This document shows positions 12 through 3,065 of a stretch of 64,000 nt of DNA, in pieces (position 1 is the stretch's first letter; every line of letters begins with the position of its first letter). The position numbers and the translations under genes were made by a program. The notes below the pieces were generated by a model. It made no database searches. It was given only the letters and a program-made list of their open reading frames with translations, and was not told where the DNA came from. The DNA comes from a virus: the IMG/VR virus record IMGVR_UViG_3300009151_000053, positions 1-64,000 of that record. One strand, written 5' to 3'.

Positions 12-611
12 ATGCCCTCTGTATTTTTGACATCTGATACACACTTCGGTCATGCTGGAGTGTGTCGCTTTCTTACCAACACTGGTGAGAAGTTGCGCCC
101 ATGGGACAATCCAGATGATATGGACGAAGATATGGTGAAGCGGTGGAATGAAACCGTGAAGCCAAACGATAAGGTCTATCATCTTGGTGATGTTGTGATC
201 AACCGCAAGGCTCTGGCTATTATGCATCGCCTTAACGGTGATAAGGTGCTGATCAAGGGCAACCATGACATCTTTAAGTTGGATGATTATACGCAACACT
301 TCCGTGAGATTCGTGCATACCAGGTTATGGACGGTATGATTCTAAGTCATATCCCTATCCATGAAGCAAGTCTTGGAAGATTTGGCACGAACATCCACGG
401 ACATCTGCATAGCAATCGTGTGATGAAGGCCAACGGCTTTGACAAGAAAACTGGTCAAGTGCTGTATGGAAATCAGATCGATCCAAGATACATTAGCGTT
501 TGTGTAGAAGCCACAGACTTTCGTCCTATTTTATTTGAAGAAGTGAGGCAACGTATCATCGACCAAGGTGGAACTGTCGGATTTAAGAACGGAAACGGTC
601 CCACTATGTAA
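12..611 (+). CDS. Calcineurin-like metallophosphoesterase
   Basis: A 199-residue protein with the full set of metallophosphoesterase metal-binding motifs: D9-x-H11 with H14 (DTHFGH), G59-D60, the GNHD motif at 83-86, H113, and HGHLH at 129-133. The family hydrolyses phosphomono- or diesters using two metal ions; the substrate cannot be read from the sequence. An AAGGAAAG ribosome-binding site precedes the ATG at the very left edge of the window. The last 8 bases overlap the 3' end of the opposing GIY-YIG gene. Such single-domain phosphoesterases are common in T4-like phages, where nucleotide or RNA-end processing is one possibility. Family call firm, role unknown. Confidence 0.9.
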
Positions 612-1164
612 GGGTTCTGCCTCGAGTCCAATCAGGTCCGGGGCAGTCTTTTACTACTTTGTTGATATAGCCATTAGTCCACCAAATGGCACCAATGCGT
701 TTTGTTCCAATAAGTTGTTTAGTAGATTCGGATAACTTTTGACCTGTTTTACTTTTGCTACCTTTGGCATTTTGATTGCCTGTGGCACGAATCGATCTCG
801 CTTTACACATATCTTCTGTATATACAGTATTTTTTGCAAGTTGATTTCCTAACAAACGAATAGACGACTGATGTCTATGTTTAATCGATGGAATCCACCC
901 GGACACACCATCTCCTCCATCAGTTTTGTTATACAATATTCCAGAACTTAAATCTTTTCGTCCATACCAACGGATATATCTACGCTCTAATGCACATGCA
1001 CCAATATCTGATAAGTTCGTTTCTAAGAATATGATCTTTGATTTGTCTTTGGGAACAGACACATTATGTTGTGGTGAATATGCTCTGTTGCCTTTTCCTT
1101 TACCAATATAGTAAGGCGTTCCATCAGATTTTCTGACATAGGCATAGACGTAATAAATAAACAT
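604..1164 (-). CDS. GIY-YIG homing endonuclease (segB-like), copy 1
   Basis: A 186-residue free-standing homing endonuclease. The N-terminus has the GIY-YIG core (YYVYAYVR followed by [12 protein letters not shown]) and a downstream RRYIRWYG with the family's arginine; the middle and C-terminus have NUMOD3-like DNA-binding repeats ([12 protein letters not shown] and following). It lies tail-to-tail with the phosphoesterase gene and overlaps its stop codon by 8 bases. A TATAAATA late-promoter box at 1226-1233 drives it, and AAGGAG lies 9 bases before the ATG. The leader matches that of the second GIY-YIG gene. Such genes spread into endonuclease-free relatives by cutting a nearby site; the target is not visible here. 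Confidence 0.9.
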
Positions 1165-1225
1165 TGCTGATACTCCTTGAAAGTGTTAGAGTCTGTGGAT
1201 ATTGACGTATCGTGACAGACACTTC
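1165..1225 (-). promoter_or_regulatory. 5' leader with terminal hairpin, GIY-YIG gene 1
   Basis: Between promoter box and ATG, minus-strand GTCTGT (1220-1215) can pair with ACAGAC (1196-1191) across an 18-base loop. It is followed by a 31-base stretch including RBS and ATG (1162-1192) that is identical, bar one base, to 2697-2728 upstream of the second GIY-YIG gene. The stem sequence differs between the two leaders but pairing is kept in both. Confidence 0.6.
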
Positions 1226-1233
1226 TATTTATA
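1226..1233 (-). promoter_or_regulatory. T4-type late promoter box for GIY-YIG gene 1
   Basis: Minus-strand TATAAATA, a perfect match to the T4 late-promoter box recognised by the gp55/gp33/gp45 system. It lies about 62 bases upstream of the endonuclease ATG, and a 6-bp stem starts right after it. Confidence 0.75.
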
Positions 1234-1520
1234 TTTTTCAGGAAACTACTAAATAATGATTGCCATTCGCTCGGTATCATAGTATATTGAGTGAGTAAGC
1301 CGATGCGCTGAGGCTTAGAAGCGCCGTGAAACGTAGAGAACGGAATGCACGAAAGACATTCGCTGGATTGCGTAACCAGCACTTATAAATAGTATCTTAA
1401 CCAGATCGTAAAACGCGGTCTTTATTGAAAACACCCTACACACTTTTGTACGGTGGTTCTTCGCTCCCTATCCTATCAGTTTAGAGAAGAGAATGTTCGA
1501 AGACAAATAAAGGAAGAATA
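1234..1520. other. Intergenic spacer between divergent late promoters
   Basis: Together with the leader before it, this is the only stretch over 300 bases (1165-1520) without a convincing gene. It holds the divergent promoters (minus 1226-1233, plus 1384-1391), a CTAAATAA motif at 1248-1255, and four adjacent short inverted repeats: GCGCT/AGCGC (1306-1324), CCGT/ACGG (1324-1343), GAATG/CATTC (1343-1361) and GCTGG/CCAGC (1362-1380). I see no tRNA cloverleaf. The minus-strand open frame across it has no family signature. Confidence 0.5.
1384..1391 (+). promoter_or_regulatory. T4-type late promoter box for cell-wall hydrolase
   Basis: Plus-strand TATAAATA, about 130 bases upstream of the cell-wall hydrolase ATG. 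The position suits late expression of a lysis gene, with a long leader in between. Confidence 0.7.
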
Positions 1521-2075
1521 ATGACGAATGGATTCAAGCAATCTAAAACCCTTCAAGACATCTTTGTTGGTATTGCAATATCTCTCGCACTAACACTGAC
1601 TGTCCAACAAGTGTTCCATAGACCATCGGAACCAATAGTTATTGAAAGACAAGTTATCGTTAAAGTCCCAGTCTACCTAAGTGTGCAAGATAAGAAGCAG
1701 ATCAAGTGTCTTGCTGATAATGCATACTTTGAGGCTGGTAATCAAACAACAAGAGGAAAGATTGCCGTCACTAATGTCGTAATGAATAGGACAAGTGACG
1801 ATAGTTTTCCAAGTACTCCATGTGGAGTTGTCAAACAAAAGAAGCAAGGTCGTTGCCAGTTCTCATGGGTCTGTGAGAAGAAAAAGGTAGTTGACGTTGA
1901 TGTTTACACAGAAAGCAAACGAGTTGCCGAACAAGTTTATATCCAAAACATTGGAGATGTAACTGCTGGAGCAACGTTCTACCATGCCAATTGGATGAAA
2001 ACTTATCCTTTTTGGTCAAAGGTATTTAAGCAAACGGTAAAAATAGAAGATCATATATTTTATTCAGAATCATAA
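1521..2075 (+). CDS. SleB-family cell-wall hydrolase (candidate endolysin)
   Basis: A 184-residue protein. Residues 12-30 form one hydrophobic segment (signal anchor or cleavable signal), and about 60-180 match the SleB/Hydrolase_2 peptidoglycan hydrolase family: AYFEAGNQTTRGK with the probable catalytic Glu at 71, VTNVVMNR, CQFSWVC, and GATFYHAN near the end. Known family members are lytic transglycosylases or amidases acting on the murein sacculus, so the likely role is host lysis, with export by the N-terminal segment. GGAAG precedes the ATG and a late promoter lies at 1384-1391. Its final 6 bases overlap the opposing GIY-YIG gene 2. The family call is strong; the lysis role is inferred. 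Confidence 0.85.
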   Translation: MTNGFKQSKTLQDIFVGIAISLALTLTVQQVFHRPSEPIVIERQVIVKVPVYLSVQDKKQIKCLADNAYFEAGNQTTRGKIAVTNVVMNRTSDDSFPSTPCGVVKQKKQGRCQFSWVCEKKKVVDVDVYTESKRVAEQVYIQNIGDVTAGATFYHANWMKTYPFWSKVFKQTVKIEDHIFYSES

Positions 2076-2699
2076 AGAACATTTATTTGATGTGATGTGT
2101 TGTCTGTAGTTTCCTGGATTAAAACCTTTGCCACATTTAGCACACACATTTTTATTTTGTTTTTGAAAATCACTTATGGCTTTCTTATGAAAATCTGTTC
2201 TCGGCGGTATTGTCTGTAGTTTTCTTTTATCTTTTATTTTGTTCTTTGTTTCTTGTGACATAGGTCTTCGTGCTGATGGATTTGGCACTCCTGTTTTAGT
2301 TTTTTTCATTTTCTCAATAACATCTTTAGGCCTTGGTTTTCCTAAACGAGATTCTTTGAGTTTTTGTTTTGTTTTTTCAGAACAAGGATGACCTTTCAAC
2401 CCCGTCTTTCCTTTATTCCAAGGTGTTCTTCCGGCAGCAGTTTCTCCACCGTCTGTCATATTTCTTAATATTCCAGTGTTATTATCTTTTCTTCCATACC
2501 AACGAATATATCTTCTTTCTAACGCAAGAGCGCCAAGTTCTGAAAGATTTCTTTCCATTATTATGATTCGTTCTTTTTCAGAAGGAAGATTTACTCTATG
2601 CTCGTTTGAATATGCTCTTTTGTTTTTACCTTTACCGATATAATAAGGCGTGTTATCTTTTCTAAGATAAGCATACACATAATAGACATAAATACTCAT
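2070..2699 (-). CDS. GIY-YIG homing endonuclease, copy 2, with C-terminal zinc finger
   Basis: A 209-residue paralogue of copy 1: GIY-YIG core ([28 protein letters not shown]), a run of NUMOD3 motifs (TPWNKGKTG, SEKTKQKLKESRLGKPRP, SQETKNKIKDKRK), and a Cys-Cys-His-Cys finger at the C-terminus (C186, C189, H201, C207) that copy 1 lacks. I start it at the ATG at 2699 because an AAGGAG ribosome-binding site sits just upstream; an in-frame TTG six codons earlier lies within that site. Its late promoter is at 2764-2771. It lies tail-to-tail with the cell-wall hydrolase, overlapping by 6 bases. Confidence 0.9.
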   Translation of the reverse strand: MSIYVYYVYAYLRKDNTPYYIGKGKNKRAYSNEHRVNLPSEKERIIIMERNLSELGALALERRYIRWYGRKDNNTGILRNMTDGGETAAGRTPWNKGKTGLKGHPCSEKTKQKLKESRLGKPRPKDVIEKMKKTKTGVPNPSARRPMSQETKNKIKDKRKLQTIPPRTDFHKKAISDFQKQNKNVCAKCGKGFNPGNYRQHITSNKCSL

Positions 2700-2763
2700 T
2701 GCTGATACTCCTTGCAAGTGTTAGAGTAGATGGAGTTCTGGGGAGTCCTCGCGATCTACATTC
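2700..2763 (-). promoter_or_regulatory. 5' leader with terminal hairpin, GIY-YIG gene 2
   Basis: Minus-strand GTAGAT (2759-2754) can pair with ATCTAC (2731-2726) across a 22-base loop, immediately downstream of the promoter box. The rest of the leader (TCTAACACTT, then CAAGGAG) is nearly identical to that of GIY-YIG gene 1. All three base pairs that differ between the two stems are changed on both sides. Confidence 0.6.
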
Positions 2764-2771
2764 TATTTATA
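2764..2771 (-). promoter_or_regulatory. T4-type late promoter box for GIY-YIG gene 2
   Basis: Perfect minus-strand TATAAATA followed by GAA, the same context as the box of GIY-YIG gene 1, about 65 bases upstream of the ATG. Confidence 0.75.
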
Positions 2772-2819: not shown

Positions 2820-3065
2820 ATGGAAGAAATCGTACTAGAAAAGGCTCTATCGAGTGAAAAGTTTACAGCCGATATTGAAAATCTGATTGCACAACATAAA
2901 CTTAACTATGTTGATGCGGTCATTCATTATTGCAACATCAACAACATTGAAGTCGAAAGCGCAGCCACAATAATCAAGCAAAATCTTAAGATGAAGGCTC
3001 AACTAGAGTCTGAGTATGAGAGTCTTAACTATTTGCCAAAGCGGGCTAAACTGAACTTCGGATGA
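2820..3065 (+). CDS. gp33: Late-transcription coactivator, gp33-like
   Basis: An 81-residue acidic helical protein resembling the phage late-transcription coactivator family (T4 gp33, 112 residues), as in the shorter cyanophage versions: ENLIAQHKLNYVDAVIHYC, then a helix ending LNYLPKRAKLNF. T4 gp33 bridges host RNA polymerase and the sliding clamp gp45 so that polymerase carrying gp55 fires from TATAAATA promoters; many such boxes occur in this window. It is followed directly by the gp59 gene with a stop/start overlap, and the order 33-59-(one gene)-32 repeats the T4 arrangement. The match is by motif and context; the protein is short, so moderately sure. Confidence 0.8.
   Translation: MEEIVLEKALSSEKFTADIENLIAQHKLNYVDAVIHYCNINNIEVESAATIIKQNLKMKAQLESEYESLNYLPKRAKLNFG

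Follow-up and report, generated by a model that had tools for sequence, protein, structure and literature searches.

The window, meaning the whole stretch of 64,000 nucleotides analyzed here, comes from a viral record of 82,212 bases and contains two homing-endonuclease gene (HEG) cassettes. The phage is T4-like, because both a gp33-like gene and, in Pfam searches, a gp59-like gene are present in the window. The parts of the two cassettes and the first gene beyond cassette B are arranged as follows, with the basis of each assignment in parentheses:

604-1164, minus strand: HEG A, GIY-YIG-type, 186 aa (ORF and PHROG profiles)
1153-1159, plus strand: ATAAATA box on codons 2-4 of HEG A, predicted antisense promoter, 6 nt before GCTG (sequence)
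1166-1221, plus strand: predicted antisense two-hairpin RNA A (fold, covariance-model match, family statistics)
1226-1233, minus strand: late-promoter-like box TATAAATA of HEG A (sequence)
2073-2699, minus strand: HEG B, GIY-YIG-type homing endonuclease, 209 aa (ORF; phrog_314, E 1.6e-13)
2688-2694, plus strand: ATAAATA box on codons 2-4 of HEG B, predicted antisense promoter (sequence)
2701-2760, plus strand: predicted antisense two-hairpin RNA B (fold; covariance-model match at 2697-2759)
2764-2771, minus strand: late-promoter-like box TATAAATA of HEG B (sequence)
2820-3065, plus strand: gp33-like late-transcription coactivator, first gene downstream of RNA B (PF16805, E 1.1e-14; phrog_254)

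In PHROG profile searches HEG A matches the homing endonuclease family phrog_314 (E 3.3e-7) and phrog_15526 (E 2.7e-21), and it contains a YIGKG motif, which we take as a sign of the GIY-YIG family. The start codon of HEG B is the ATG at 2697-2699 on the minus strand. Pfam searches yield no homing-endonuclease match for either gene, whereas the PHROG profiles do match. By eye, the C-terminus of HEG B (2073-2160, minus strand) resembles a zinc finger (CAKCGKGFNPGNYRQHITSNKC). The roughly 280 nt between element A and a cell-wall hydrolase gene (1240-1520, plus strand) have no long gene-like ORF and include, also by eye, inverted repeats and a TATAAATA box near 1383.

A sequence-only reading of this DNA had described one architecture for both leaders, and that description holds. 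On the minus strand, TATAAATA (1233-1226 and 2771-2764) is followed by a 6-bp stem, GTCTGT/ACAGAC in A (1220-1215 with 1196-1191) and GTAGAT/ATCTAC in B (2759-2754 with 2731-2726), in which the compensated changes are real; the near-identical stretch TCTAACACTTxCAAGGAG lies at 1173-1190 and 2708-2725. The element is larger than had been recognized, however: a second hairpin containing the Shine-Dalgarno (SD) sequence, an inverted late-promoter box in codons 2-4, and a pairing pattern that indicates the opposite strand had all been missed.

Read antisense to the HEG, the element is a compact two-hairpin RNA. RNA A consists, in order, of a G, hairpin I, an A, hairpin II, and an A. Hairpin I (stem P3) pairs CUGAUACU at 1167-1174 with AGUGUUAG at 1182-1189, and hairpin II is built of an outer stem P1 (1191-1196/1215-1220) and an inner stem P2 (1198-1201/1208-1211) with an R/GYG internal loop. 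RNA B has hairpin I at 2702-2709/2717-2724 and P1 of hairpin II at 2726-2731/2754-2759. The predicted stability is -15.5 on the plus strand and -9.2 on the minus strand for A, and -16.0 and -11.0, respectively, for B; that of RNA B is ordinary for its own composition (z -0.58).

At least 303 distinct elements of this type were gathered from environmental viral contigs. The pattern CTAACACTTNCAAGGAG occurs in 41 viral stretches, some of them unrelated and the remainder beginning different endonuclease genes, and further patterns, drawn from the SD/start region, from the P3 region, and then from the structure without SD or ATG, recovered many more elements. The figure of 303 is a lower bound from pattern searches, not a prevalence, and the elements are distinct by sequence, with some from closely related contigs, so that counts are not independent events. 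In this set P1 was counted if at least four of its six pairs are Watson-Crick; CTA, CAGC, and TATTTAT were required, and P3 pairs 1-3 and the box spacing are therefore fixed by the way the set was selected. For closer analysis, an alignment (A1) of 117 parsed rows was reduced to 104 by removing identical cores and four rows with a poor P1, and two loci (L017 and L098) were restored by hand, giving the 106 rows from which a covariance model, R1, was built.

R1 matches all 40 of the 40 viral records that had supplied loci, with 85 matches in total and up to eight element copies in one 68-kb record. In the window the two elements score E 3.6e-17 and 8.4e-15, values that are partly by construction because a near-copy of the window locus (L032) gives two of the 106 rows; no other window match falls below 0.35. 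Fourteen named phage records were also scanned, picked for HEG similarity or weak matches and, for S-PM2, because of its antisense RNA CfrI. Credible matches occur in two of the 14, Variovorax phage V45v66 (E 4.1e-15; the element is at 86005-86062 of PV558790) and Pseudoalteromonas phage vB_Psh_XG4 (E 1.7e-5). Matches in four others (E 0.009 to 0.67) are regarded as chance, and eight, S-PM2 included, have none.

The element is not a described RNA in the collections searched. Rfam has no match at the two window elements at E up to 5, and none at gathering thresholds over the elements in 20 loci. A 3.2-kb part of the window has no megablast match among phage records, short leader queries against phage records find weak unrelated matches only (those to P-SSM4 fall within structural genes), and a core-pattern scan of bacterial genomes finds nothing. 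Known small ribozymes were weighed, and a hammerhead was rejected on the grounds that the core G and A positions vary in the elements and that Rfam gives no match. Among the open-licence papers listed in literature searches, no title or abstract opening describes this element, and the text of PMC10448857 mentions neither antisense nor promoter.

RNAalifold recovers P1, P2, and P3 without guidance. In A1 the stems are paired in 95.3% of cells; shuffles reach 72.2%, and sliding the partner leaves 33-47%. Of the 14 pairs, 12 show changes on both sides (353 cells versus 96.5 in shuffles). The seven best-scoring column pairs are all stem pairs; six exceed every one of 60 nulls from a custom-written tree-based procedure, and the seventh has E 0.05. 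P3 was also tested by a search that constrained neither the base preceding CT nor the one following AAGGAG; among the matches listed, these two bases pair in 97 of 102 (58 G-C, 35 A-T, and 4 T-A), the remaining five being A·C. In its common form, read antisense, P3 comprises eight pairs, CUGAUGCU/AGCRUUAG, the third of which is G·U. Register is lost at its pairs 6-8 in about 40-65 elements, and sense G·T occurs 40 times at pair 8. The P2 loop, checked for pairing with GCUG, has no consistent complement. Confidence that a structured element is under selection is very high, and this part of the sequence-only reading stands, with paired substitutions abundant in further homologous leaders; its other part, a 5'-terminal stem acting as stabilizer or timer of the HEG mRNA, is not supported.

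In leaders that covary in this manner, the count of G·U against A·C decides which strand folds. On the sense strand of the 303 elements, P1, R8·Y30, and P3 pairs 4-5 together contain 297 A·C and no G·U, while shuffles predict 487 and 224; for P1 alone, G·U is 0 against about 165 in shuffles. The non-Watson-Crick cells of A1 have the same character, with 14 A·C, 0 G·T, and 7 other in P1, 27 A·C and 0 G·T at R8·Y30, and 5 and 0 in P3, P2 being mixed (8 G·T, 6 A·C). Since each sense A·C corresponds to G·U in the complementary strand, the fold under selection is that of the strand antisense to the HEG, although some cells are simply broken pairs, since A·C too is below the shuffle expectation. P3 pair 3 is antisense G·U in all 303 elements, an invariance due partly to selection of the set because the pattern fixes the letters of pairs 1-3; in XG4, which lies outside the pattern, GUG/UAC replaces CUG/UAG and the G·U is retained (by eye). 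The antisense fold is the more stable in 152 of 153 elements (mean -17.0 versus -12.1) and in 294 of 303, a comparison in which the G/U-rich antisense composition by itself favors the antisense fold (shuffle means -10.2 versus -6.2). Twenty-one of 49 divergent matches show 3 bp, in most cases because the anchor fell inside P1, and these values were left unused. It is very probable that the antisense strand is the one that folds.

These counts bear directly on the proposal that a sense-selected hairpin at the 5' end of the HEG mRNA serves as a stabilizer or timing device. P1 is complementary on both strands, and in 174 of the 268 elements with a HEG-side TAAATA within 14 nt, the end of the box is 5 nt from P1, which places P1 near the predicted sense start. 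Yet G·U is absent from P1, R8·Y30, and P3 pairs 1-5 on the sense strand while A·C is frequent, the conserved A·C cells break the SD hairpin there, and only in the antisense RNA does this hairpin reach 8 bp. The box, moreover, ends only 3 nt before P1 in 64 of the 268 elements, and at the box-to-start distance of T4 late promoters a sense transcript would miss the first bases of the stem. A sense-selected hairpin is very unlikely. In one locus (L020) an extra hairpin, ATATGTT/AACATAT, is visible by eye between the HEG promoter box and P1, and P1 is therefore not 5'-terminal there.

DNA also tolerates G·T pairs; the strand bias is therefore not by itself proof of RNA, and single-stranded DNA folded from the strand opposite the HEG, for example during homing or recombination, could be the selected form. 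A promoter box at a near-constant distance from the start of the fold fits transcription, however, and freely varying stems do not fit a DNA recognition site; we regard folded DNA as the least probable of the explanations considered.

The box that faces the HEG promoter is NATAAATA, which lies on HEG codons 2-4, 5-6 nt before the start of the predicted antisense RNA; that of HEG A points toward HEG A's own promoter. A passage on S-PM2 in PMC2984593 gives NATAAATA/TATAAATA as a late promoter in T4-like phages. The antisense box lies 5 nt from GCUG in 105 elements and 6 nt from it in 14, together 119 of 150 (five of 155 items had no parse). Where TATTTAT was not required, the full antisense ATAAATA is found in 83 of 97 elements and TAAATA in 89; of these 89, 85 are in the common register to the ATG, three are one base nearer, and one is one base further. 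Protein coding alone fails to explain the box, because the shifted boxes fall in another reading frame. On the HEG side, TAAATA lies within 14 nt of P1 in 268 of 303 elements, leaving 35 without such a box.

The SD and the start codon wander, whereas the stems, CAGC, and the box hold their register. AAGGAG is absent from P3 in 153 of 303 elements (searches fixing neither SD nor ATG, pooled with earlier loci), and the start codon is 5 nt upstream of CAGC in 30 of 303. In 23 elements the start offset is -11 to -20; the codons concerned may be in-frame ones further upstream and were not counted as moved starts. A further 30 elements have no ORF of 60 codons near CAGC. In four copies found only by the model (L023, L060, L239, and L240) the ATG is upstream of CAGC and the distance from CAGC to the box is still 5 nt (by eye). 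On the antisense strand, P3 pair 4 remains a standard pair in 299 of 303 elements and pair 5 in 293, with four and ten non-pairs, respectively; the variants at pair 4 are A-U, G·U, G-C, U-A, U·G, and C-G. Downstream of P1, the T fraction is 0.57 over 12 nt and 0.30 about 100 nt further on in an earlier set, and at least 5 of the first 8 nt are T in 170 of 303 elements. An intrinsic terminator after P1 is no more than suggested by these T runs; a consensus terminator scan finds none at the window elements.

HEG similarity is present within 1 kb of 287 of the 303 elements, each immediately preceding the HEG-like gene, and extends over GIY-YIG, HNH, and other families. Among 140 ORFs of at least 100 aa behind the elements (22 below 100 aa were left out), 87 match phrog_314 and 44 phrog_655, both homing endonucleases. 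Pfam assigns, with overlap between families, 46 to NUMOD3, 12 to HNH, nine to HNH_3, and nine to GIY-YIG. When the first 110 residues are clustered, the result is groups of 106, 22, and 3 and nine singletons, and single linkage may have merged families. That such different nucleases have a leader in common speaks against an RNA tailored to one protein.

A structured antisense RNA could have another job, binding a phage or host protein through the R/GYG loop or acting in trans on other mRNAs. The R/GYG loop and the A flanking P1 on each side are conserved beyond pairing needs, with T at sense position -1 in 292 of 303. The attachment of HEGs to 287 of 303 elements makes another job improbable; among the copies read, the only free-standing ones have decayed or cut-off HEGs.

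With genes called simply as the longest ORF, the leader-side neighbor of the element runs antisense to the HEG in 192 elements, on the same strand in 96, and unclear in 15 of the 303 (antisense in 78 of 113 scored rows). The cassette might thus be inserted antisense between genes, with an outward promoter and a structured, stabilizing leader for the neighbor that would make the HEG costly to lose. In 76 antisense cases the first long ORF begins a median of 63.5 nt beyond P1, with another TAAATA in between in only 20; the predicted antisense RNA of window copy B would run into the gp33-like gene about 60 nt further on. T4 HEG coding regions embed promoters of neighboring genes, segG/gene 32 and others, according to PMC2988022. 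Here too the predicted promoter is inside the HEG coding region, but the box is at codons 2-4, is oriented antisense to the HEG, and is followed by a conserved structured RNA. Against a neighbor leader, the antisense transcript would enter no gene in the 96 elements whose neighbor is on the same strand, and the strand bias is unchanged there: at R8·Y30, A·C occurs 44 times with antisense neighbors (n=192) and 29 times with same-strand neighbors (n=96), and G·U in neither. The antisense box is retained in 20 of 25 same-strand cases versus 56 of 63, and all neighbor ORFs rest on simple longest-ORF calls. Because A·C without G·U is found in both neighbor groups, HEG regulation ranks above a neighbor leader, which we consider unlikely as the explanation of the element; both could be true.

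We propose that each HEG cassette comprises two late promoters that face each other at a distance of about 75 bp and enclose the entire 5' UTR. Promoter 1 would drive the HEG, and promoter 2, within HEG codons 2-4, would drive a short antisense RNA. That RNA would begin at GCUG, immediately upstream of the start codon of the HEG, and fold into the two hairpins. It would be complementary to essentially the entire HEG 5' UTR, with the SD complement in its first loop, and its pairing with the HEG mRNA would mask the ribosome-binding site and so keep endonuclease synthesis low, in cis and perhaps also in trans between copies. To judge from sequence, an antisense transcript is probably made from the facing box, and repression of the HEG seems on balance to be its main function. 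As both promoters look late, this would not be a simple early/late switch.

A T4-type occlusion of the ribosome-binding site is the remaining alternative. In a read-through RNA, AUAAAUA of the promoter would pair with UAUUUAU of codons 2-4, so that a closed junction surrounds the SD. The boxes are exactly complementary, and PMC2988022 describes the same logic for I-TevI, segB, and mobE. Box-box pairing is rejected because the boxes do not covary, the codon box being altered (TATATAT, TATTTAC) while the promoter box stays ATAAATA. Most HEGs, moreover, are antisense to the upstream gene, and 35 of 303 elements have no TAAATA within 14 nt of P1. Nor is the SD sequestered in sense: P3 pair 3 is A·C in 303 of 303, and the mean unpaired probability of AAGGAG in 130 sense mRNAs is 0.53. 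Occlusion of this type is highly improbable.

Antisense control of the HEG can be compared with several known systems. The T4 HEG leaders (I-TevI, I-TevII, I-TevIII, and segB, and mobE of Aeh1) likewise combine RNA structure with a late promoter at the head of the HEG; they sequester the ribosome-binding site in sense read-through RNA, whereas the stable hairpin here is antisense. PMC2988022 describes T4 HEGs as nearly all co-oriented with their neighbors, segD excepted, with leader hairpins acting in sense. CfrI, the sole antisense RNA tied to a HEG found in the open-licence literature covered, is about 225 nt long, comes from cyanophage S-PM2, and lies antisense to both a HEG and psbA (PMC2984593, PMC5931967, and PMC12197685). 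Like CfrI, the RNA predicted here would be an antisense RNA associated with a HEG of a T4-like phage; CfrI is longer and spans the HEG/psbA intergenic region. R1 has no match at E up to 1 in all 196,280 bases of S-PM2 (AJ630128).

In the IS10 system of RNA-OUT and RNA-IN, an opposing promoter near the start of a mobile nuclease gene makes a short structured antisense RNA over the ribosome-binding site. The phage element resembles it, by sequence, in having an opposing promoter at the start of a nuclease gene (ATAAATA in 83 of 97 elements where it was not required) and, by prediction, in having a stably folded antisense RNA that covers the ribosome-binding site, with the SD in the P3 loop; control between copies is possible in both. 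It differs in having two hairpins and a gp55-type late promoter, in serving several endonuclease families, and in that repression is here a proposal. We know of no relationship in sequence between the IS10 RNA and the phage element.

How selfish endonucleases persist in phage genomes without harm is an open question, and a single structured antisense RNA serving GIY-YIG, HNH, and further families would act as a general damper. Copies have loop I and the start region in common. A tentative and rather doubtful extension is that a new phage antisense RNA family provides a layer of control shared by unrelated homing endonucleases, in which every copy may silence the others, a copy-number control of a selfish-gene guild, and the G·U/A·C asymmetry keeps the silencer folded while loosening the SD hairpin in the target mRNA. 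The proposal is testable in a cultured phage, as Variovorax phage V45v66 has a copy.

Several individual loci have features of their own. In L047, L101, and L222:9905 (oriented) the stems are intact and the HEG is cut down to 4-11 codons; the HEG appears to have decayed before the RNA in these copies, which are useful for dating the RNA's own selection. At L078:13342-14268 and L223:4050-4610 the element precedes ORFs with a C-terminal match to phrog_218 (head closure/TnsA-like), either a HEG fused to a head gene or one recruited from it. A freshwater-2 RNA (Rfam RF02980, cis-reg) scores above its gathering threshold at L053:3014-3089 (minus strand), about 2.4 kb from an element, and a permuted tmRNA (RF04321; alpha_tmRNA RF01849) is present at L108:80-373 (plus strand) in an element-bearing viral contig.
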